Notes under the pieces: model-generated
The model's input: the letters and a program-made list of their open reading frames with translations, nothing else
What the model was told of the DNA's origin: nothing
Databases searched by the model: none
Shown here: piece by piece, positions 6,689-24,582 of the stretch
Layout of the letters: every line of letters starts with the position of its first letter
Position numbering within the stretch: position 1 is the first letter of the stretch
Origin: a virus
IMG/VR virus record: IMGVR_UViG_3300010883_000335
Span: 1-27,252 of that record
DNA length: 27,252 bases
Reading direction: 5' to 3' (one strand)
Position numbers and translations under genes: made by a program

Positions 6689-8149
6689 CTATGCTTCCAT
6701 TACGAAGAAGTTGTTTGCACCTAAAGTACAAACACATCTTTCAGAAAGGAAATGAACATTCATCTCATCAATGCCTGATGTTCTAGCACCTCCGGCAGAA
6801 CCTGTTATCCAAGTCTTATACCTTCGGTCTTCTGTTTCAGACGCTCTGTAACGAACATGCAAGAAAGGTCTCTTAGCATTTTTGCCCATAACTTGGTCAT
6901 AAACACTTGTTGAACCCGCAGGAACCATAAGCCCGAAGACTTCGCCCGCGTGAATTCCACCCCTCATAGCAGCATCGTTAAGATACTTCCAATCAGATTT
7001 GTAGAAATCATAACCTCTTCTGAAGCCTTTAAAGCCTAAGTTAAGAGCCATCTCTTCGTCGTTATCGAACAATCCAAAAGATGTTCCGTTAACGCCGTAT
7101 GAGTTTTGAGCCGCTAACATATCATCGATATCAAAGCTAAGTTCCCTATTACAGAAAATTACATTCTCTTCAATAGAACCTTGCTTATCAAGTCTTTGGA
7201 TGATAGCATCAAAATCAGCAAGAGATGAAGGAGAGCCACTGAAGACGTTTCCTCTATTCCTTACTACCCAAAACACACCCTGAGAGCCTTTGTTACCTAC
7301 GTTGCCGCCTCCTGCAATAGCTGCTGCTCCTGAGCCTACTTCAGCCGGAACTGCTTCAATCATGGCAGTTTCAAGGTAATCATCAAATCTCATTCTTGTG
7401 TCAGACTCAGACTTAAGATACCAAAGGTATCCGGCAGCGCCTAACTCAGAAGTGATTTCTACCCATCCAATTTGCGCCATATCAGAACCACTCACGACAT
7501 ATTTGTCACGGATGATGATAGGCGAGTTCTCGAAGATGTAGTCATCAGACTCTAATCCAAGCATTGTTGCATCATCAGAGGCTTTCTGAAATTCAGAACC
7601 ATAAATAAATACAGTACATTGTGCGCCTAACGCAAACGCTTGACCCGCAGCTTCATAATAAGCTACAGTAAAGGTTTGAACGCCCGGAGCGGGTCCTGAC
7701 ACGGCAGTAACGATAGCTTTGTTCCAAAGAGTTGATGCTCCTGCATTAGCAGAAATCATAACAGTTTGACCTACCTTGATAGCGATGTTGCCTGCGGTTA
7801 AACTCGCAGTAGTAGTTCCGCCACCGGGAAACGCAGGATTAAGGTTGTCAGCCACCGTGATTACACCTGTTGGCGAACCTGCTGCTTGTGCTGAAGTACA
7901 CTGTGTATACTTAATATGTAGACGACCTTGCTCAGTCCATTTAATTAAATCAGAATTGGAGGGCATCTCTGCACCTACCATTCTTAAAAACGCGGAAACA
8001 CTTCTGTTTCCATATCTCTCGAATTCCTTCTCATATGTATCAGGTAAATACTGATTCAAAAAGTCGAAATTAGTGATATAGTTTGTCGAGGTGGCGACAC
8101 GTTCCGCACTTGGAATTAAGTCGAACCCCGGAGTTGGTAATACACTCAT
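6689..8149 (-). CDS. Major capsid protein (HK97-fold, crAss-like type), 486 aa
   Basis: Complete 486-aa ORF, a length close to crAss-like major capsid proteins (about 490-500 aa). Residues 1-60 include TNYITNFDFLNQYLPDTYEKEF and NRSVSAFLRMVGAEMPSNSD, followed by a Gly/Ala/Thr-rich insertion (about 85-185) that could form a surface domain. The C-terminal half has RRGYDFYKSDWKYLNDAAMRG and RPFLHVRYRASETEDRRYKTW, typical of phage capsid subunits of this lineage. It is placed after portal and scaffold-like genes, as expected for the shell protein. A strong terminator follows immediately. The HK97 fold is inferred from family knowledge and was not tested by structure. Confidence 0.85.
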   Translation of the reverse strand: MSVLPTPGFDLIPSAERVATSTNYITNFDFLNQYLPDTYEKEFERYGNRSVSAFLRMVGAEMPSNSDLIKWTEQGRLHIKYTQCTSAQAAGSPTGVITVADNLNPAFPGGGTTTASLTAGNIAIKVGQTVMISANAGASTLWNKAIVTAVSGPAPGVQTFTVAYYEAAGQAFALGAQCTVFIYGSEFQKASDDATMLGLESDDYIFENSPIIIRDKYVVSGSDMAQIGWVEITSELGAAGYLWYLKSESDTRMRFDDYLETAMIEAVPAEVGSGAAAIAGGGNVGNKGSQGVFWVVRNRGNVFSGSPSSLADFDAIIQRLDKQGSIEENVIFCNRELSFDIDDMLAAQNSYGVNGTSFGLFDNDEEMALNLGFKGFRRGYDFYKSDWKYLNDAAMRGGIHAGEVFGLMVPAGSTSVYDQVMGKNAKRPFLHVRYRASETEDRRYKTWITGSAGGARTSGIDEMNVHFLSERCVCTLGANNFFVMEA

Positions 8150-9332: not shown

Positions 9333-11768
9333 TTATCTAGGTTCAAATTCTGCAAGGTCAAAACCATCTAAACTATCCTCATTGGATTCAAATCGTTGAG
9401 GAGGAGTATTGTTTTGTCTTTGTTCAATTAACCTAGACTGTTCGGTATTAGCCTGACTTATTCTCTCCGACTTGGCTCCTTCTCTTTGAGACTCTCTTTC
9501 CTTAAGAGAATTTTCGCTAACATCCGTTAATTGCTTATTATAATTAAACTCTTCCGCCATTAGCATTTTTTTCATTTCTGCTTCCGCCCTCATCTTCTCT
9601 ATTTCAAAAGCTACTTCAGCTTGTTTAATTTGCATTGCCGTTTGTCCTTCAAGTTGTATCTTTTCCATTGCCGCCTGTGCCGCCATCTGTTGAGATTGCA
9701 GTTGTCCTTGCTGCTGAATGGCTTGTTGCTCCATTGCCATTTTCTCATCATACTGTTGTTTCTGACGTCTCTTAACTTTTAACAATTGGTTTGCCATCTT
9801 AATATTTCTTATCTCACGTATATCTATAGCATCTTCAAGATTAATATCTTTCTGTTGTAGAGCCATTTGTATATTCCCTTCTAACATAGCTTTTTCTTCT
9901 TCGTCGGGAGCAACTCTAATAAAAATGCCAAAGTCATAAATATATAGGTCTTTAATATCTTCAAGAACTTTAAGATTATATTTACCTATCTTATTTGCGA
10001 ACTCTTCTTTAAAAGGAGCATACTCTAATATATCAGCTATTCTATAAGATAAAGCTTCTGCTAATGACCTTAATAAATAAAGGCTTGCATCTAAAATATG
10101 TCTAGTAGCGACATTAGAATTAAGAGCAGCAAGTTTTTGAACCCCCACAAGAGAATAAGGGTCAGGAGTTGTTCCATCCCTTGCTTCATTTAAACCTGTA
10201 CATGCTCGTATCATCTCCATATAATGATTGTAGTTTCCAATAAGAGCCTGCATTTTTTGTTGTCCTGTATTTCCTGTCAACTGAGTGACAGGGATTTTGC
10301 CATGATTATATTCTCCCTCTTGAGTGTAACTTCTTCCTATTACACTTCCCGTTTGGAAATAAAGGCGTAATGCATCTTCAGGATTATAGGAATTCCCGGT
10401 TCCCAAATCTACTTCGTTTAACCCATCGGCATCAATAAAGACACCGTCAGGGACCATCCTAGATATTACTTGTTGGAGTTTTAAGTGTGTAATCTGAATA
10501 AGGTCAGCAAAAGGTATCATCCTTTGAAGTAAAGACTCTATCCTTCCTTTATACATTCGTGGAGCCACGGCAATATAGTTTGGGAGAGCATGTTGGGTAG
10601 CTGACTTTGGTCGTACCATATTTTTAGCCATTTCCCATTTTAATATTATATTGGTCCCCATAATCATTACCCCATCATACCATACGTCAATGGTTTTCTC
10701 TATCTTCTCAAAATTGCCCTCTTCCATCATTTCGTCCGGGGGGTTAAAGGTATCATCTTTTTCAATTACCTTTTCTCCACCTCCTTCGCTTACTTTCTTT
10801 TTATGAACAACTTTTTTGGTAGTTTTATAATTAAAGTATAGAACTGTAGCAGTGTCCCTATAGAAAATGCTATTTTCCTGAAACTGTGCTACATTATAAT
10901 AATTGTACCAAGCCTGTGAATACTTTGATATAGTATTAAGGTCATCATTTGTAAGTGTGGGGTCAATTTTCATTAACTCAATTATAGGAATGGATTTTAT
11001 TTCTCCCCAATAGAAGCAATCTTTAAAATGAGGGTCTTCAGTATAACTGTAAATAACATTGGCAGGGTCTACATAATCAATAGTCACACCTGCTCCCGGA
11101 AGGAATTGAGTTTTCGTTATCCCTATACCTAAAACAGTGAGGTCATAATCCATGCGCTTACGCGTATCTATATAATGATTATCTTCAAGCATTGTATTTA
11201 TAGCCTCTTCTTCAGCAATCTCGATGGCAGGCTTATAATTTAGTTGCATAAATAAGGACAACTCTTCATCAGTATTGGGTAAGTTATCGGGGTCCATTGA
11301 GAAAGTATCTACTTGGAATTCTTCAGATATTACGGTAAGAATATCTTTAGCAATCATTTGGCCTTCTATTTCATCTTGATATTTGCTTCTATGAGCCGCC
11401 GACATGGCATCTTGTGCATATGCATTTACTTTAAAAAGACGGTCTGACATACCATTAACAACAATATCTACAAATTTAGGGATGATAGGAACAGGAGTCC
11501 AATCAAGATTAAGATATGATAAGTCTCCATCAATAGCTAACTCATTTTTATATTTGGCTATAGATTGTTCTCCACGCGCATATAGTCTAAGTCTATGAAA
11601 ATTTGCCCATTGGTCATAAAATCGACAATTGTTATAATCTCTTCTAAACCATTCATATTGAATAGCCTGTCCAATCTGTAATCCATATTCAAATGTCGCT
11701 TTCTCAGCATCGGACACAAACTGAGAAGGAAACCCACTAGGATTAATATTTATTTCTACTTCTTTCAT
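9333..11768 (-). CDS. Portal protein (crAss-like type), 811 aa
   Basis: Complete 811-aa ORF whose ATG shares one base with the terL stop (TAATG), indicating translational coupling. Residues 59-75 (RLRLYARGEQSIAKYKN) and 83-106 (LSYLNLDWTPVPIIPKF followed by VDIVVNG) form a signature I recognise from crAss-like portal proteins, and the length suits that family. The C-terminal region (about 655-745) is extremely Gln/Met/Ala/Glu-rich and predicted coiled coil, probably the barrel or internal extension. The portal is the dodecameric ring at the capsid vertex through which the terminase packages DNA and to which ring proteins dock. The gene follows terL directly and precedes the scaffold-like gene, the standard head-module order. 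Confidence 0.88.
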   Translation of the reverse strand: MKEVEININPSGFPSQFVSDAEKATFEYGLQIGQAIQYEWFRRDYNNCRFYDQWANFHRLRLYARGEQSIAKYKNELAIDGDLSYLNLDWTPVPIIPKFVDIVVNGMSDRLFKVNAYAQDAMSAAHRSKYQDEIEGQMIAKDILTVISEEFQVDTFSMDPDNLPNTDEELSLFMQLNYKPAIEIAEEEAINTMLEDNHYIDTRKRMDYDLTVLGIGITKTQFLPGAGVTIDYVDPANVIYSYTEDPHFKDCFYWGEIKSIPIIELMKIDPTLTNDDLNTISKYSQAWYNYYNVAQFQENSIFYRDTATVLYFNYKTTKKVVHKKKVSEGGGEKVIEKDDTFNPPDEMMEEGNFEKIEKTIDVWYDGVMIMGTNIILKWEMAKNMVRPKSATQHALPNYIAVAPRMYKGRIESLLQRMIPFADLIQITHLKLQQVISRMVPDGVFIDADGLNEVDLGTGNSYNPEDALRLYFQTGSVIGRSYTQEGEYNHGKIPVTQLTGNTGQQKMQALIGNYNHYMEMIRACTGLNEARDGTTPDPYSLVGVQKLAALNSNVATRHILDASLYLLRSLAEALSYRIADILEYAPFKEEFANKIGKYNLKVLEDIKDLYIYDFGIFIRVAPDEEEKAMLEGNIQMALQQKDINLEDAIDIREIRNIKMANQLLKVKRRQKQQYDEKMAMEQQAIQQQGQLQSQQMAAQAAMEKIQLEGQTAMQIKQAEVAFEIEKMRAEAEMKKMLMAEEFNYNKQLTDVSENSLKERESQREGAKSERISQANTEQSRLIEQRQNNTPPQRFESNEDSLDGFDLAEFEPR

Positions 11769-14008
11769 TATTTCAAAATTTCACTTAAACTACCCTTATT
11801 GTTATATGTTGCAAAGTTAATGCTTATTTTCGACTGTTCTTTTTGAGGGGTATACATGTGCTTTTGATTAGCCATTATCGCTAACCCGGAACTTATAGTA
11901 GCATCAAATTTAGTTCTATTATTAATATTAAATTTTGCCCAATCCTCTAATGTTCGTGTAAAGTTCATAGACCCCATCTCATCAGAATCTCTATAAACAC
12001 CTTGCAAGTCTATCCCTACATGCTTTTCAATATAGGATTCTATAGCCGATGCATGTGATTGTTTTACATCTTCAGATGAGTTAGGTATACCACCTAATTC
12101 TTTTTCTGTTTTTGATAACTTATTAAATACTTTATCAGGGCGATTTAGGCAAAACCCCCTATATCCTCTATTTTTAAAATGATATAATAATCTAGGTTTA
12201 TTATTTTCAATCAATATAGGCATACCATAGAATATACACGCCATAAGCACTTCTTCAAAAAATATCTCTGCCGTCTGTGGTCGTGCTACATACTCTAAAA
12301 AAAACTCATTGCTAGGAGCATCTTCCATATTAAATTTAGTGAGTCCGTGAAGTGCGCCATTTGAGCCACGCCCGCCTACTGTTCCTGATATATCATATGA
12401 GTCACACCCAAAAGAGCCGATATGCTCATTCCCCGGCAATTTGCGACCTCGTTTTTCAAGTGTTCTATTTTGTAAGTGTAGAGCAGGAATCCAAGAAAGA
12501 AGAAACCGCCCATGATTATTGGGCGTCCATATCACGCGAGTATCTTTAATCCCATCTTTCCAATGGAAAGACCCGCGCGTTAAGAAGTGTTCTTTTATTA
12601 AAGAATCATTATAGTCAATTTGTTGGTAAATTTTAGTTAGATTAAAAAGAGACTGTTGGCTCTCATCTCGAAAAGCATGTGACTGCGTTTTTGGAAACTG
12701 TCGATAGAATTCATTAAGAGCATCAGCGTCATTCTTTAGAGATGCTACTTCATTCTCCCAATATTGTAAGGCTCCCATCTTAATAGTTCCTCCATCAATA
12801 CCTTTAATGTGAGATGAAGGAGTATTAAATATAGGCATTCCATATCTATCAATATATCCCTCAAAATTCCATTCCATAGGAACAAACAGGCTATAAAGAC
12901 CGCTTTTTGTTTGTCCATTGCTATTGCGTTTTTCTATATTAGAGTCCTCAAATAACTTTTTAAAATTATCTCCTCCTTTATCAAGAGCATTAGAAGTTGA
13001 CCCCATCATGCATTTGCCTATAATTCGTGACCCTAAACGCAAGCAAGTCTTCGTTACTCGCCAATTATTTAGAATATTATCGGGCCTCATCCATTTACCG
13101 GACTCATCGTGTATTAAAAGCTGAAGTTTTTCTCCATCATAACTATTATCAGCAGTATTTTTCCAATCTATAGTAGTGTCTAACCCATCAAGTTCATCAT
13201 GAGATATATTATACATGTTTTTTTTGGTAATCTTAGCGGCAGGGATTCTATATGCTAATTCTGTTTTTGGTTTATCCATGCCATCTTGTATAGGAGAAAA
13301 GAAAAAGGGATAATTAGTTGAGATAGGAACTATCTTATCGGTAAACATTTTCTTAGCATCTGCCCCCGTCTTTGATAATACTCCTATACGAGAGTCTTTA
13401 GCTAGAGTGGCATTATTAACTGCTTCCGAAGACCCCATAAATGAGAATCCTGACCTCCTAATCTTTAAATAACACATACCAAAGCTTCTATCGTCAGCTT
13501 TACATGCTTCCCAAAAAATAAAAAACAAACGATTTGCTTCCCTAAAATCGGGATATCCTATATCGATTTTTGTCCATTGAAGATACATGTAATGAGACCC
13601 TGTAATATATGTTGATAGGGTCTTATTCGTAAACCAATGTCCTTGTTCTCTTTTATCAAACTCTGCTTCAATATAATCTACCCATTGCGCCTTAAAAGCA
13701 CTTGGCATCTCGTTCCATTGAAAGATGGTTTTTATTTTCTTTAATATTTTAGGTTGGGGAATGCGTTCCCAATACTGTTCTATTGGTATCCTTGAGGATA
13801 CTTTTTTAGGAATAGATGGTAAAGCTATATATAGACCACTTATGTTATATATATCTCCAATAGTCCCATTTTGGGAGATAACTATTATATCATATTTTTC
13901 ATTATAACCATAAAGCCAAGACCGATTATTATTCTTTCGTTTAATAACGCCACTTGGAACAATATCTTTTACTATTCCATATAATTTATTTTGACCTTCG
14001 CTCTGCAA
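11768..14008 (-). CDS. terL: Terminase large subunit, 746 aa
   Basis: Complete 746-aa ORF, the ATPase/nuclease motor that packages the genome. Visible motifs are a Walker A-type segment KIRRSGFSFMGSS (182-194; divergent, as in many large terminases), Walker B LQLLIHDESGKW (295-306, D301/E302), a coupling-type GSTSN (336-340), the linker YRQFPKTQSHAF (435-446) and an RNase H-like nuclease signature GCDSYD (534-539). The start overlaps the upstream 93-aa gene by 23 bp and the stop overlaps the portal start by one base. The gene contains a copy of the 16-bp palindrome at 13786-13801, encoding VSSRI near residues 70-74. No interruption is seen. The assignment is secure, and crAss-like affinity is supported by the neighbouring portal. 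Confidence 0.9.
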   Translation of the reverse strand: MQSEGQNKLYGIVKDIVPSGVIKRKNNNRSWLYGYNEKYDIIVISQNGTIGDIYNISGLYIALPSIPKKVSSRIPIEQYWERIPQPKILKKIKTIFQWNEMPSAFKAQWVDYIEAEFDKREQGHWFTNKTLSTYITGSHYMYLQWTKIDIGYPDFREANRLFFIFWEACKADDRSFGMCYLKIRRSGFSFMGSSEAVNNATLAKDSRIGVLSKTGADAKKMFTDKIVPISTNYPFFFSPIQDGMDKPKTELAYRIPAAKITKKNMYNISHDELDGLDTTIDWKNTADNSYDGEKLQLLIHDESGKWMRPDNILNNWRVTKTCLRLGSRIIGKCMMGSTSNALDKGGDNFKKLFEDSNIEKRNSNGQTKSGLYSLFVPMEWNFEGYIDRYGMPIFNTPSSHIKGIDGGTIKMGALQYWENEVASLKNDADALNEFYRQFPKTQSHAFRDESQQSLFNLTKIYQQIDYNDSLIKEHFLTRGSFHWKDGIKDTRVIWTPNNHGRFLLSWIPALHLQNRTLEKRGRKLPGNEHIGSFGCDSYDISGTVGGRGSNGALHGLTKFNMEDAPSNEFFLEYVARPQTAEIFFEEVLMACIFYGMPILIENNKPRLLYHFKNRGYRGFCLNRPDKVFNKLSKTEKELGGIPNSSEDVKQSHASAIESYIEKHVGIDLQGVYRDSDEMGSMNFTRTLEDWAKFNINNRTKFDATISSGLAIMANQKHMYTPQKEQSKISINFATYNNKGSLSEILK
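13786..13801. repeat. Palindrome variant GTATCCTTGAGGATAC inside terL, copy 5
   Basis: One-base variant of the dispersed 16-bp palindrome with intact 6-bp arms, located in the terL coding sequence. On the plus strand, antisense to terL, it is followed by CTTTTTT, giving it the form of an antisense intrinsic terminator. Its minus-strand reading is identical to the copy at 25646. Confidence 0.7.
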
Positions 14009-19687: not shown

Positions 19688-19876
19688 TTATGCTTTCTCT
19701 TTATAGGGAAAAGCTTGGTTTAATTTTTTTTTTCTATTCTTACACCCACAATCTTTGCCGGTAACTTTAGTTACTGTATCAACAACTTTAGAAATCCCCG
19801 TGGCTTGAGCCATTTTCTCTATAGTGTCGCCAAGACCTCTCGACTTCCGATGACCTCTATAATATCGTACCGACAT
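19688..19876 (-). CDS. Small basic Cys-motif protein, 62 aa
   Basis: The 62-aa ORF has a basic N-terminus (SVRYYRGHRKSRG), an amphipathic part (GLGDTIEKMAQATGISKVVD, 14-33) and the C-terminal motif KDCGCKNRKKKLNQAFPY (41-58) with C43 and C45. I recall the same CGCxxRKxxLNxxFPY ending from short proteins in other marine phages, function unknown. A CxC pair alone is not a zinc finger. The gene starts after the structured element at 19910-19964 and ends 11 bp before the 263-aa gene. A cargo or fibre-accessory role is possible. Confidence 0.6.
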   Translation of the reverse strand: MSVRYYRGHRKSRGLGDTIEKMAQATGISKVVDTVTKVTGKDCGCKNRKKKLNQAFPYKEKA

Positions 19877-19909
19877 TTAAATCTTTTTCATAGATGTAAG
19901 TTTTCAATA

Positions 19910-19964
19910 GGAGAGATACGGAGTAAAGGGAGTGTTACCCCGAACCGTTTACTCGGCAATCTCC
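19910..19964 (-). ncRNA. Intergenic structured RNA element (long interrupted hairpin)
   Basis: The minus-strand RNA can form an outer GGAGA/UCUCC stem, an internal loop, an inner 7-bp GAGUAAA/UUUACUC stem and a small GGG/CCC hairpin at the tip. It lies between the 71-aa and 62-aa genes with no T-run after it and no tRNA features. It could be an RNase processing, stability or translational-control element. It was called by eye from complementarity. Confidence 0.45.
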
Positions 19965-19971
19965 TAAGTTG

Positions 19972-20187
19972 TTATCTGTTTCCTTTCGTCTTCATCTTGG
20001 TGTTTTTCTTCTGAACTCTTGCAGCTTTACGTATCTGACTTGGAGTCATGCTTTCCTTCTGCTTTGCAGTAGGACCCGTTCCTCCACCACCTTTCTTGTA
20101 GTTAGCTACGGCTCCCGCAATTTTCTTTGCATCGCTCCCGCTTTTACCACCCTTCTGAAGCTTTGTTACTAATCCTTTAAAACTCAT
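19972..20187 (-). CDS. Small Lys/Gly-rich basic protein, 71 aa
   Basis: The 71-aa ORF is strongly basic (many Lys, few acidic residues), with a Gly-rich centre (YKKGGGGTGPTAKQKESM, 30-47) and a basic tail RKAARVQKKNTKMKTKGNR. It begins MSFKGLVTKLQKGGKS. It probably binds nucleic acid or acidic surfaces non-specifically. It is the fourth gene of a run of five tiny proteins, starting six bases past the 65-aa gene. The structured element follows it. No family was recognised with certainty. A virion cargo role (proteins packed with DNA) is inferred. Confidence 0.55.
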   Translation of the reverse strand: MSFKGLVTKLQKGGKSGSDAKKIAGAVANYKKGGGGTGPTAKQKESMTPSQIRKAARVQKKNTKMKTKGNR

Positions 20188-20193
20188 GGTTTC

Positions 20194-20391
20194 TTATTTT
20201 CGGACTAGACTTGTAATGCGTTCATGAACGAATTCATATGTCATTCCGTGGTCTCCACCATATGCGTGTCCATAGTCTTTTTTAGACATTGCTTTACTCT
20301 CATCTCTACGAGACTTTAAACTTTGCTTGTGTTTGCCTTTATGCTTTGCGCCTAAAGAATCATCAAGTCTGTCATTGTATCCTTGTGCCAT
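20194..20391 (-). CDS. Small basic conserved protein, 65 aa
   Basis: The 65-aa ORF has RLDDSLGAKHKGKHKQSLKS (8-27), RRDESKAMSKKDYGHAYGG and a His/Lys-rich middle. I recall a similar 'RLDxSLG...RRDESKxM...AY' pattern in short proteins of marine phages, with no function assigned. It starts three bases after the 105-aa gene, in the same operon as two paralogous basic proteins. Nucleic-acid binding or virion cargo is inferred from charge and context. Confidence 0.55.
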   Translation of the reverse strand: MAQGYNDRLDDSLGAKHKGKHKQSLKSRRDESKAMSKKDYGHAYGGDHGMTYEFVHERITSLVRK

Positions 20392-20393
20392 AA

Positions 20394-20711
20394 TTATTGA
20401 TATTTTTTTCTTGTTGCTTTGCGGGTTGTTGTTTTTTTAGGTTTTGCGCCTTCCTTTAACATAATAGAGTTAAGCATATCCTTTGCCTTATATTTGGTTT
20501 TAGTAACTGTCCCTTTTGTTGTGGTTTTACCTTCCCCGCCCGCATAAAAAGATGGAACATATCCCTTTCCTTTATGTTTTGCAGTAACCGTCCCAAAGCG
20601 TTGTGTGACTTTATGCTTAGAAGTGGGGGTGGTTTTTTTATGCTTTACCTGATTGCTTTTAGGCTTATCATCCTCAGTTTCATGTAATGGTAATGATGTT
20701 CTATATGCCAT
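20394..20711 (-). CDS. Basic protein with shared N-terminal tag, 105 aa
   Basis: The 105-aa protein is extremely rich in Lys and Thr (for example KHKKTTPTSKHKVTQRFGTV and KPKKTTTRKATRKKYQ). Its N-terminus MAYRTSLPLHETEDDKPK is nearly the same as that of the next gene upstream (MPYRTSQPLHPTEDDKPK), while the rest is unrelated. The coding DNA for the tag is also similar (20662-20720 against 20970-21028). It lies two bases past the 101-aa gene. The histone-like charge suggests DNA condensation or a packed cargo protein. Confidence 0.6.
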   Translation of the reverse strand: MAYRTSLPLHETEDDKPKSNQVKHKKTTPTSKHKVTQRFGTVTAKHKGKGYVPSFYAGGEGKTTTKGTVTKTKYKAKDMLNSIMLKEGAKPKKTTTRKATRKKYQ

Positions 20712-20713
20712 AA

Positions 20714-21019
20714 TTATTTTTTTTGGTGTCTTTTATTTGTTAAATCTGTGAACGCTTTTTTATTTGATAGGTCAACAATTGTTTTTCTATCTTTTCTAGC
20801 TTGAACCAAATCGCCAATACTGATATTGCCGGGAGTGGATTTCTTCCGTGGGGTGGAGTGGTATTTAGTAAAACCCTTAACCGCCTTATCAAGATTAACA
20901 GAATCTGTTTTATATTGCTCCATAGAATATCCTGTAGGTCCTGTCATCCCTGTCATTCCTTTTTTCTTTGGCTTATCATCCTCTGTAGGATGTAATGGTT
21001 GTGAAGTTCTATATGGCAT
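20714..21019 (-). CDS. Basic protein with shared N-terminal tag, 101 aa (first gene of mini-protein operon)
   Basis: The 101-aa protein starts MPYRTSQPLHPTEDDKPK and continues with a short GMTGMTGPTG collagen-like run (20-29), then a helical basic region (VQARKDRKTIVDLSNKKAF) ending KRHQKK. The first 18 residues are shared with the 105-aa neighbour and the rest diverges, as expected for a common targeting or docking tag. The promoter element TATATTTG is 26 nt upstream. No known family was recognised. Confidence 0.6.
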   Translation of the reverse strand: MPYRTSQPLHPTEDDKPKKKGMTGMTGPTGYSMEQYKTDSVNLDKAVKGFTKYHSTPRKKSTPGNISIGDLVQARKDRKTIVDLSNKKAFTDLTNKRHQKK

Positions 21020-21463: not shown

Positions 21464-21943
21464 ATGGATATAGATAAACTTATCGACAGAAGCTATACAA
21501 AAAAGACGCCATCAAATGATTATTTGAAGTATTGGCGCGTAATAAGGTACTATTTTAAAAAAAAATATGATATCTCTACTGCTGACCTTGAAATGTTATT
21601 GTTCCTTTACTCTGAAAGATACTTCTCTAAGGTAAAGTTTAATGAGTTTAACGAACTTTTGTCTTGGGATATAAAAAGATTTGATAGTCTCTTGAAGAAG
21701 GGATGGATAGGGGTTTTTAGAAAGAATAGGCATAAACATAAAACCCTTTACGAAATATCACATAAAGGTCGCCACATGATAGGTTCCATCTATAAGAAAC
21801 TTAATGGCGAAGAAATACCCGAAAGTTTGACCGGAAACCCAATGCTCCTCAAAAATGTGTCCTATTCGGATAAAGTATATCGCAATATGATACGTGAGAT
21901 GAATAAGTCTATAAGACAACAACGACGTCTTTCTCAAGAATAA
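21464..21943 (+). CDS. Winged-helix-like DNA-binding protein, 159 aa
   Basis: The only plus-strand gene inside the late block. Residues 37-112 read as a winged helix: helix ADLEMLLFLYSERYFS, helix FNEFNELLS, a recognition-helix candidate WDIKRFDSLLKKGWIG (68-83), then a basic beta-wing VFRKNRHKHKTLYEISHKG. This resembles MarR/PadR-type folds by pattern, without a diagnostic signature. The C-terminus is basic (MNKSIRQQRRLSQE). The start is supported by the promoter 25 nt upstream and the ATTAAATCAATG leader. The last 35 bp overlap the end of groES in convergent orientation. Its position suggests regulation of the divergent late promoter or of the chaperonin genes, which is inference. Confidence 0.6.
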   Translation: MDIDKLIDRSYTKKTPSNDYLKYWRVIRYYFKKKYDISTADLEMLLFLYSERYFSKVKFNEFNELLSWDIKRFDSLLKKGWIGVFRKNRHKHKTLYEISHKGRHMIGSIYKKLNGEEIPESLTGNPMLLKNVSYSDKVYRNMIREMNKSIRQQRRLSQE

Positions 21944-22166
21944 TAGTAAAGGTCTGTTGCTCAATAATCATATCATAGCCTGACTTCTTATCATAGTAGA
22001 TGATGTCATTCTCTTTTATGGAATCAACATGTGTTCCCGGCTTTACGACTTTCCCTTTCTTATACCTAAAGCTATTGCTATCGGTTTCTGAAAGAAGGAG
22101 TCCTGACTCGGTAGTTACCGGCTCCTCAATGGTATTGATGATTATATATTTGTTAATCGGCTGCAT
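21909..22166 (-). CDS. groES: Co-chaperonin GroES (Cpn10), phage type, 85 aa
   Basis: The 85-aa protein is slightly shorter than bacterial GroES (about 95 aa) and follows its pattern: KYIIINTIEEPVTTESGLLL (6-25, with the SGLLL corresponding to 'GGIVL' at the mobile-loop end), FRYKKGKVVKPG, IKENDIIYYDKKSGYDMII and a terminal ILEKDVVVVL like the GroES C-terminal strand. It would cap the GroEL cage. It starts inside the last codons of groEL (14-bp overlap), so translation is coupled and the order is groEL-groES, the reverse of bacterial operons. Its 3' end overlaps the convergent winged-helix gene by 35 bp. Confidence 0.85.
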   Translation of the reverse strand: MQPINKYIIINTIEEPVTTESGLLLSETDSNSFRYKKGKVVKPGTHVDSIKENDIIYYDKKSGYDMIIEQQTFTIILEKDVVVVL

Positions 22167-23778
22167 ATGTTCTAGCTAAAGTGATTATTGCATTAGTGCT
22201 TAATATCGTTATCGCTACAGAAACTGCGTTTGCCAAAGCACTTTTCGTAACTTTAGCGGGGTCAATAACTCCCATATCCATTAGGTCTCCGTACTGCTCT
22301 TTTTTTATGTCATAGCCAAATCCTTCTTTTTTTACTTCTATGTTCCTGTCTACATAGGTATCAAGAATATTAGGAGTTTTGCCACTATTAATCATTATTT
22401 GTTCAAAAGGAGCGCGCAGCGCGATTTCAAAAATTTTCAGCGCAGCATTTTCTTCTTTAGACTTATAGGGCTGATGAATACAGTTGTCAGCCTCATCATA
22501 GAGTGCTATCCCTCCACCGGGGAGGATACCATCTTGCAGTGCTGACCTAACGGCACATACGGCATCATCAACACGGTCAAATTTTTCTTTTTGTTCGAGG
22601 TCGGTATGTCCCCCAACATGTATCACTCCGATGCCACCTTTCAGTGCTGCTATCCTCTCTAGGATAAACACTTGGTCGGCAGGATTTTTCGTTGCCTTAT
22701 GCTGCTCCCACAATTCTTTTGCTCTTGTCTCTATTGCTTTGGTATCGCTTGCGTCATCTTTAATTATTATGGACGAGTCTCTTCCGATGATGACTTTCTT
22801 GGCATGGCCCAAATCGCCGAACTCGACATGGCTGAGGTCATCGCCTGTGCCTTCAGAGAAGTATGACGCTTTTAGGGAGAACGCAATATCAGCCATCAGT
22901 TCCTTCTGCTTCCATCCGAAGTTAGGGGGTTGTATGACGCATATCTTAAGGCCATTCTTCATGACATTAGCCGCTAAGGTATTAATGACATTAGGGGCGC
23001 AGGGCGCTATGAGAAGGAGTTTCTTGCCATCAGTTATTATTGGCTTAAGGGCTTTCTCGATATTAAGGATGTTGTTTATCTCGATGTCTGATACCATTAC
23101 ACAGACGTCTTCGAGGATGCACTCGTCTTTCTTTTGGTTATTGATGAATAGGTTGGAGGAATATCCCCTGTCGAGTTTAAACCCCTGTGTCACTTCGGCG
23201 TAGGTCTTTTCCGATTGTGACTTCTCCACCGTTACGATGCCGTCCTTCCCGACCTCGTTATATGTGTCGCCGATGATTTTACCTAACTCCTTATCATTAT
23301 TTGCTGAGATGGTAGCCACATCAACGACTTTCTTTTTATTTAACTTGCGAGACTTAATTGTTAGGTTGCTGAGAATACTGCGACACAGAATGTCAATCTC
23401 ACGAAGCATCTCCGTAATATTTAACTCCCCAATATCTTCCAATTGATATGCCGCCTCAACTATCGCCTCCGTTAATACTATCGCCGTTGTCGTTCCGTCG
23501 CCCGCATCTTGAGCAGTCTTATCTGCCGCCTGCTTCATAATCTTTACCGCAAGGTTCTCAACGGGGTCCAATAAATCTATGCTCCGGGCCACCGTGACGC
23601 CGTCTTTCGTTACTGTTATTCCGTGTGTGTGGTTTTGGGATTCAATGAGGACCGTCTTTCCGCGAGGTCCCAATGTGCTTTTTACGGCGCGAGATATTTC
23701 CTTTATCCCCTTGATGAGTTTCTTTCTGCCCTTCTCGTCGAAAGCGAGTTGCTTGGGCGAGTATCCTAAGTCTTGCAT
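22153..23778 (-). CDS. groEL: Chaperonin GroEL (Cpn60), phage-encoded, 541 aa
   Basis: Full-length 541-aa chaperonin (E. coli 548). ATP-site motifs are intact: TLGPRGKTV (35-43), KDGVTVA (58-64), DAGDGTTTA (91-99), RVDDA (402-406) and PGGG (420-423). The apical domain has FKLDRGYSSNLFINN (200-214), matching bacterial 'DRGYLSPYF', and IAALKGGIGVIHVGG (376-390). The C-terminus ends ARTYAAD and lacks the GGM repeat tail. Several positions differ from host-type Bacteroidota GroEL (for example SANNDKE), so it appears to be a diverged viral lineage. By eye its coding DNA is more GC-rich than neighbouring genes. It has its own promoter and leader and overlaps groES by 14 bp. It probably folds virion proteins such as the capsid protein. 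Confidence 0.95.
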   Translation of the reverse strand: MQDLGYSPKQLAFDEKGRKKLIKGIKEISRAVKSTLGPRGKTVLIESQNHTHGITVTKDGVTVARSIDLLDPVENLAVKIMKQAADKTAQDAGDGTTTAIVLTEAIVEAAYQLEDIGELNITEMLREIDILCRSILSNLTIKSRKLNKKKVVDVATISANNDKELGKIIGDTYNEVGKDGIVTVEKSQSEKTYAEVTQGFKLDRGYSSNLFINNQKKDECILEDVCVMVSDIEINNILNIEKALKPIITDGKKLLLIAPCAPNVINTLAANVMKNGLKICVIQPPNFGWKQKELMADIAFSLKASYFSEGTGDDLSHVEFGDLGHAKKVIIGRDSSIIIKDDASDTKAIETRAKELWEQHKATKNPADQVFILERIAALKGGIGVIHVGGHTDLEQKEKFDRVDDAVCAVRSALQDGILPGGGIALYDEADNCIHQPYKSKEENAALKIFEIALRAPFEQIMINSGKTPNILDTYVDRNIEVKKEGFGYDIKKEQYGDLMDMGVIDPAKVTKSALANAVSVAITILSTNAIITLARTYAAD

Positions 23779-23800: not shown

Positions 23801-23808
23801 CAAAGATA
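23801..23808 (-). promoter_or_regulatory. Bacteroidota-type promoter -7 element for groEL-groES
   Basis: The minus strand reads TATCTTTG, 23 nt before the groEL ATG, inside the 35-bp gap to the 95-aa gene. The leader TTAAATCAAATCAAATG is nearly the same as those at 9273 and 17132. No CIRCE-type inverted repeat was seen, so heat-shock control of the host kind is not indicated. Confidence 0.75.
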
Positions 23809-23813
23809 ATAAA

Positions 23814-24101
23814 TTATTCGGTGTAAATATATATCGGAGTCATCTCTCCAACATATGCCCCCAATACATTGTAGTCAATATATTCCATAGCATCTTCCTC
23901 ACTCATCTCATCGCGAGTCATTAATATATCTATCATCTTAGCAACTCTATATACTAGCTTACCCTCATTGGTGTAGCCTACTATAGCCGAATTAAACCCA
24001 TCGGCAATTAATGCCTCCGGATAATGTTCTTTTACTATCTCCAATATCTTATCGTGATTCATTCGTTTGGTGTATTTATATATCGTCTTCTTCTTCGTCA
24101 T
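23814..24101 (-). CDS. Unknown protein, 95 aa
   Basis: The 95-aa ORF has a basic N-terminus (TKKKTIYKYTKRMNHDK) followed by a mixed domain with EHYPEALIADGFNSAIVGY (about 26-44) and an acidic segment TRDEMSEEDAMEYIDYNVLG. I recall the 'EALxADGFxxAxxGY' pattern from short unnamed phage proteins. No enzyme motif is visible. It ends six bases before the groEL promoter element and overlaps a possible 36-aa ORF upstream. Confidence 0.5.
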   Translation of the reverse strand: MTKKKTIYKYTKRMNHDKILEIVKEHYPEALIADGFNSAIVGYTNEGKLVYRVAKMIDILMTRDEMSEEDAMEYIDYNVLGAYVGEMTPIYIYTE

Positions 24102-24225: not shown

Positions 24226-24582
24226 TTATTCATTTTTAATGTTTTTTTTTATATAGTCTAGTAACCAATCGTTGTCCCGGCAAATTCCTAAAAAATAATT
24301 AGCCATTTGGTGTACAACAATCTCTTCATCATCATCTTCCTCTAATGGGGCGCTAGATTTATTTAATCCTCCAATATCTATTATGGCATGGAACATTTCA
24401 TGGATAAAAGTATTGACCATCTTTTGTCCATATAAATCTTTTTGAATCTCTATTAAGCCTTTACGGCTATCGTATATGCCATAGCAATCCGTTAAGTGGT
24501 CCGTTGTGAAGTCAGGAGAGGAATATTTAATTTCGATATCCCTATACCCTACTTTTATTTTATTAGGCTTTCCTTTTCCCAT
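24226..24582 (-). CDS. HEXXH metalloprotease-like protein, 118 aa
   Basis: The 118-aa protein has FIHEMFHAIIDIGGL with the zincin motif HEMFH at 61-65. The two His would bind zinc and E62 would be the catalytic base; a third ligand could be E86, E87 or H91 in EEIVVHQMANYF. The N-terminal part IKVGYRDIEIKY and CYGIYDSRKGLIEIQ form the beta-hairpin that usually precedes the motif in short phage proteins of this type. The family resembles ImmA/SprT-like mini-proteases, but the substrate is unknown. It could cleave a repressor, a host factor or a virion precursor. No signal peptide is seen, so it acts in the cytoplasm. Confidence 0.7.
   Translation of the reverse strand: MGKGKPNKIKVGYRDIEIKYSSPDFTTDHLTDCYGIYDSRKGLIEIQKDLYGQKMVNTFIHEMFHAIIDIGGLNKSSAPLEEDDDEEIVVHQMANYFLGICRDNDWLLDYIKKNIKNE

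Follow-up and report, generated by a model that had tools for sequence, protein, structure and literature searches.

Can a phage carry a complete folding cage of its own, chamber and lid together, and what would such a cage serve for? The characterised phage examples considered here are either jumbo-phage chaperonins working with no lid or gp31-type lids that borrow the chamber of the host. In the window, as the whole viral record of 27,252 bp analysed here will be called, a groEL gene (22153-23778, minus strand) is followed by a groES gene (21909-22166, minus strand). We consider it fairly likely that the two encode a self-sufficient phage group I folding cage, refitted through the lineage, perhaps single-ring or enlarged, and probably used for virion proteins. 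The initial annotation had placed the whole pair at 22153-23778; this interval is that of groEL only.

The large chaperonin subunit is encoded by an intact gene of 541 codons. Its product matches Cpn60_TCP1 (PF00118) over residues 28-533 (Pfam E-value 5e-54), PHROG 5725 'chaperonin groEL' (7e-127) and the NCBIfam GroEL models (down to 3e-141), with an NCBIfam score of 435 bits that exceeds two subfamily cut-offs but falls short of the GroEL equivalog cut-off of 582. The catalytic residues D52, D87 and D398 (E. coli numbering, used for GroEL throughout) are found in the window and in 82/82 relatives, and the full-length Cpn60 domain with its three catalytic aspartates identifies a group I chaperonin (GroEL/Cpn60), in keeping with the full-length groEL with ATP-site motifs described before. 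In the same way, the co-chaperonin gene is intact, with 85 codons, and matches Cpn10 (PF00166, E 1e-10) and PHROG 3188 (E 1e-14). Its product of 85 residues, a length found in nearly all clade members, combines the Cpn10 beta-barrel with the hydrophobic mobile-loop motif that identifies GroES/Cpn10. As had been annotated, groES starts within the last codons of groEL, which comes first, and the overlap measures 14 nt. With both genes intact and strong family matches, the description as a complete phage pair was borne out, and the pair is probably functional.

On the minus strand, groEL and groES lead onward to a virion block of terminase, portal and structural proteins. It includes the terminase large subunit (TerL, 11768-14008, minus strand; PHROG 6681, E 5e-174), which was used as an independent marker for phylogeny and sampling, and a protein of 486 residues (6689-8149, minus strand) matching PHROG 13704, 'virion structural protein' (E 8e-95), whose position in the block indicates that it is probably the major capsid protein. 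A run of small Lys/Arg-rich proteins (19688-21019, minus strand) lies between the groE module and the virion block. Immediately 5' of groEL lies a small gene of PHROG 13182 (23814-24101, minus strand). Its homologues are found close to groEL in some relatives and sit between groEL and groES in four loci (L003, L007, L010 and L044), and its link to the chaperonin pair is uncertain. Another small protein, encoded at 24226-24582 on the minus strand, contains an HEMFH motif and shows a weak SprT-like metallopeptidase match below the family cut-off. A tRNA search of the window found none.

Relatives of the window GroEL are encoded by 317 IMG/VR stretches, and the best 80 of these 317 were analysed. 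Among them, groES is downstream of groEL in 79/79 loci in which both genes were located, at distances ranging from an overlap to more than 400 nt, and a convergent gene for a MarR-like protein usually comes next. An outlier of 6.9 kb, locus L049, is probably a second GroES-like match, since this locus also has a groES overlapping groEL. Sampling was also carried out independently of GroEL, with 18 larger records taken from a TerL search. GroEL was present in 5/5 of the near-complete genomes of at least 58 kb picked in this way and in 8/9 of those of at least 41 kb; one TerL-picked record of 51 kb is without GroEL and may be a fragment. The chaperonin pair turns out to be an old, stable component of a whole viral lineage.

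The nearest isolates are the Flavobacterium elemo phages (Elemovirus, NC_055854.1). They are annotated with both genes, which makes the earlier statement that known phages carry one chaperonin component each out of date. They share with the window groEL followed by groES, the short-roofed lid and a homologous convergent winged-helix gene, but their GroEL is only 34% identical, keeps L234 and displays other ring-contact changes. The closest annotated relative is Podoviridae sp. ctfjg026 (MW202828.1, 60.85 kb, circular; GroEL 56%, TerL 72%), a different species with the gene order and convergent gene of the window, annotated and apparently unstudied. The groEL-groES order, reversed with respect to bacteria as first annotated, is real but not unusual, since the elemo phages and MW202828.1 have both the pair and the order; the idea of a unique order was rejected. 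Marine et al. 2017 (ISME J, 'Novel chaperonins are prevalent in the virioplankton') reportedly linked subunit gene order to GroEL phylogeny, so that this order would be already known.

The late region had also been called crAss-like. A TerL tblastn search (E 1e-5) found no Crassvirales; apart from one unassigned relative, all its matches were flavobacterial phages. Profile comparison with a single Crassvirales reference genome, cr111_1, in which the capsid genes are split, gave a weak likeness for TerL (hmmsearch E 6e-6) and portal (hhalign probability 87%) and no match for the four other structural proteins tested, capsid and tail included. A strict assignment to Crassvirales is thus not supported by these tests, and crAss-like is a distant relation only. 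In parallel, Cellulophaga phage phi46:3 (L305), a TerL relative, is annotated with groES only, which is roof-less, and no GroEL match was seen in it; flavobacterial phages therefore seem to comprise both carriers of the lid alone and carriers of the complete system.

GroEL was previously described in 36 marine phage genomes (group 2) related to Cellulophaga phi38:1 (Nishimura 2017, PMC5332604), and this broad set very probably includes the window. Phage GroEL in a marine Bacteroidota group is already published there, as both genes are already annotated in cultured elemo phages; the available part of that paper deals with GroEL only and holds no lid, ring-interface or groove analysis. What is added here, as read from the sequences, are the changes of the lid, the tail, the ring contacts and the groove of the phage chaperonin pair. 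Among open-licence papers, none on these four features of this lineage was found.

The roof hairpin is missing from the lid. The GroES roof segment measures 11 residues in 79/80 relatives, as compared with 20 residues in 55/78 bacterial GroES and 15 in 15/78, the latter mostly from Bacteroidota, while the mobile segment counts 26 residues in the clade against 24. The mobile-loop motif is GLLL, of which G22 and L25 are invariant. An AlphaFold2 model (pLDDT 91.5), for which the alignment was built without rows from the phage collection, matches GroES structures with Z-scores of 10-11 and gp31 with 8.6. Like the window lid, T4 gp31 is without roof loops (13 residues), but it uses the host GroEL, its mobile loop is longer and it carries further insertions, whereas the window lid has its own chamber. 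As the phage has its own GroEL with a changed groove, the lid, in which the roof loops are absent as in gp31-type co-chaperonins, is gp31-like in shape and is not classed as a gp31 member. Roof-less GroES was also found in phages phi46:3, DAC16 and XG4. Roof loss as a phage-only trait was rejected, since the segment is equally short in one Campylobacter and two Nitrospirota GroES, and several other phage GroES have retained the roof.

The chamber is modified as well. The GGM tail, whose absence from the window had been pointed out, is found in 0/82 relatives as opposed to 88/102 bacterial GroELs; the window protein ends in ...ITLARTYAAD, and 3-10 residues follow position 523 in the clade versus roughly 19-27 in most bacteria. 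At the ring contacts, positions that were taken from published knowledge, the window GroEL carries R452E, E461T, S463N and V464I, and the single-ring mutant SR1 is R452E, E461A, S463A and V464A (PMC5653362). Conservation was scored in 45 non-redundant clade members over the 193 columns that are at least 94% conserved in bacteria. K105, A109 and R452 are within the 13 least conserved of these columns (random triples, p = 1.6e-4, not from a blind test, since the positions were tested after R452E had been seen in the window). Lysine at 452, a mild change, is frequent in the clade, and the length of the 105-119 region varies, so that the alignment of the interface is uncertain in part. The key GroES contacts are L233, L236 and V263 (PMC12696368), which are L234, L237 and V264 in the present numbering. 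In this groove for GroES and substrate, L234E, V263A, V264A and Y203L are nearly fixed and L237 and F204 retained; the alignment gap within residues 226-250 occurs in the window sequence as it does in the bacterial-like rows, which leaves L234E aligned with no indel there.

The relaxed ring-contact residues argue against a standard ring-ring interface, and a single-ring phage GroEL is a tentative reading to which we give a little less than even chances. The ring contacts are also altered in other phage GroELs, namely pv27, K382 and Calle3, and loosening of this interface may therefore be a recurrent change. In the same way, the single-ring chaperonins of OBP and AR9 and that of phage EL are phage GroEL relatives with altered ring contacts, but they are reported to act without a co-chaperonin (PMC5934643, PMC9598537), whereas here groES always adjoins groEL. 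As for the bacterial groESL operon, it holds the same two proteins; its groES-first order, GGM tail and close host identity are not found in the window, which has groEL first, no GGM tail, a short roof and at most 39% identity.

The origin of these differences can be explained in several ways. Recent capture of a groE operon from the host, or a chimeric assembly of the contig at 21.9-23.8 kb, would fit the raised GC of both genes: groEL has 44.5% GC against 37.3% for the whole contig, and GC3 is 0.48 in groEL, 0.465 in groES and 0.27 in TerL. The excess that the initial annotation had suspected is real, but its value as evidence of transfer was rejected, since within the clade groEL GC3 follows locus GC (r = 0.88, n = 93), and neighbour genes are raised too. 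A chimera was rejected because the matching block recurs with its flanks in dozens of independent contigs. The best bacterial GroELs, from mixed phyla, are 35-39% identical to that of the window (at most 38% in Bacteroidota genomes), and none among those sampled exceeded 39%. The window clade is monophyletic with 100/100 support, and its placement alone inside Flavobacteriales was rejected by the AU test (p = 0.003), in line with the separate viral lineage first proposed. Recent host acquisition was likewise rejected, from the recurring block, the GC3 tracking and this AU test, and either form of the explanation is highly improbable. For more ancient sources, the AU tests give no distinction between Bacteroidota and the remaining phyla (p = 0.056 for all phage lineages grouped with Flavobacteriales, p = 0.13 for grouping with other phyla), and in the best tree the phage GroEL lineages join near Bacteroidota. 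The elemo GroEL is sister to the window clade (100/91 in one tree, 99/94 in another), a position that carries a warning since both are long branches. The GroEL of the jumbo Bacteroides phage DAC16 (L092), whose GroES is unannotated, nests in Bacteroidales and is apparently an independent, younger acquisition.

An ordinary double-ring phage copy of bacterial GroE, raising folding capacity in infection and differing from it by drift, is a real possibility, though not one we hold to be probable. It agrees with the retained group I architecture, with the closest solved structures to the phage GroEL, which are double-ring GroELs, and with the relaxation of other surface columns such as G337, K277 and Y360. 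On the contrary, the ring-contact columns rank with the least conserved, the lid deletion is identical in 79/80 members, and 29 formerly invariant GroEL columns have been swapped and then fixed anew in the clade, a pattern that is not drift. The trimmed lid and altered ring contacts look like adaptations for folding the virus's own proteins, and the cage is probably adapted to its own lid and enlarged.

In the self-sufficient cage that we favour, groEL would probably be transcribed from a promoter of Bacteroidota host type, with groES next and, in the window, overlapping. GroEL would form a heptameric chamber driven by ATP, with GroES as the lid. This large phage lineage has passed the pair down for long enough to refit it. 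On the lid, the roof hairpin is gone and the mobile segment is slightly lengthened; in the chamber, the C-terminal tail is lost, the ring-ring contacts are released and the groove for GroES and substrate is altered. The outcome would be a roomier phage-specific cage, possibly working as a single ring, in which phage proteins, with large virion proteins the likeliest, would be folded independently of host GroE. It is possible, but somewhat doubtful, that the entire lineage combines an enlarged single ring with its own roof-less lid, is not closed by host GroES and is perhaps regulated by the MarR-like protein. If true, the strategies of gp31 and of OBP/AR9 would be joined in one self-sufficient machine. 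A lineage with both parts, consistent lid deletions and contact-site substitutions provides testable predictions on how a folding cage is enlarged and privatised. Moreover, the elemo phages infect cultured Flavobacterium, so a related pair is directly testable.

Virion proteins have about an even chance of being the clients, and the product of 6689-8149 is a candidate. A non-capsid phage protein as main client, for instance an endolysin or a replication enzyme, is rather unlikely. The chaperonins of EL and AR9 were tested with an endolysin substrate (PMC9598537) and the Callevirus pair sits among replication genes, but in the window lineage the pair is a same-strand neighbour of the virion block, and the lid without a roof has a parallel in gp31, which serves the T4 capsid protein (PMC6318259). 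In gp31, the greater length of the mobile loop and the absence of roof loops are believed to accommodate this protein of about 56 kDa (PMC6318259).

The promoter of groEL had been described as phage-style. The motif TATCTTTG (23801-23808, minus strand) lies 22 nt 5' of the groEL ATG, and the pattern TAnnTTTG occurs at most 120 nt 5' of groEL in 80/82 relatives where Markov shuffles predict 6.2; in the window alone the pattern is not significant (37 matches on both strands). We take TAnnTTTG to be the Bacteroidota -7 promoter element. The groEL promoter is therefore host-style rather than phage-style, and this motif together with the flavobacterial TerL relatives points to Bacteroidota hosts for the window phage. 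In some loci groEL and groES are set apart by several hundred bases, with no promoter motif adjoining groES, and co-transcription is for this reason not claimed for every locus.

The convergent gene (21464-21943, plus strand, 159 residues) is kept beside groES in the clade and in the elemo phages. The model of its winged-helix product (pLDDT 88.9) finds its best PDB matches mostly in the MarR family (Z up to 9.5), and this MarR-like protein perhaps regulates the chaperonin pair. Close to the groEL promoter, TGAC/GTCA inverted repeats such as TTGACACTGTGTCA were observed in five loci (L005, L008, L016, L022 and L024), and none was seen upstream of groEL in the window; these repeats are possibly an operator for the convergent protein. 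Finally, the convergent gene overlaps the 3' end of groES by 35 nt (31-41 nt in 70/74 loci), so that positions 21909-21943 of the window are coding on both strands, and this conserved antisense overlap may constrain both C-termini.
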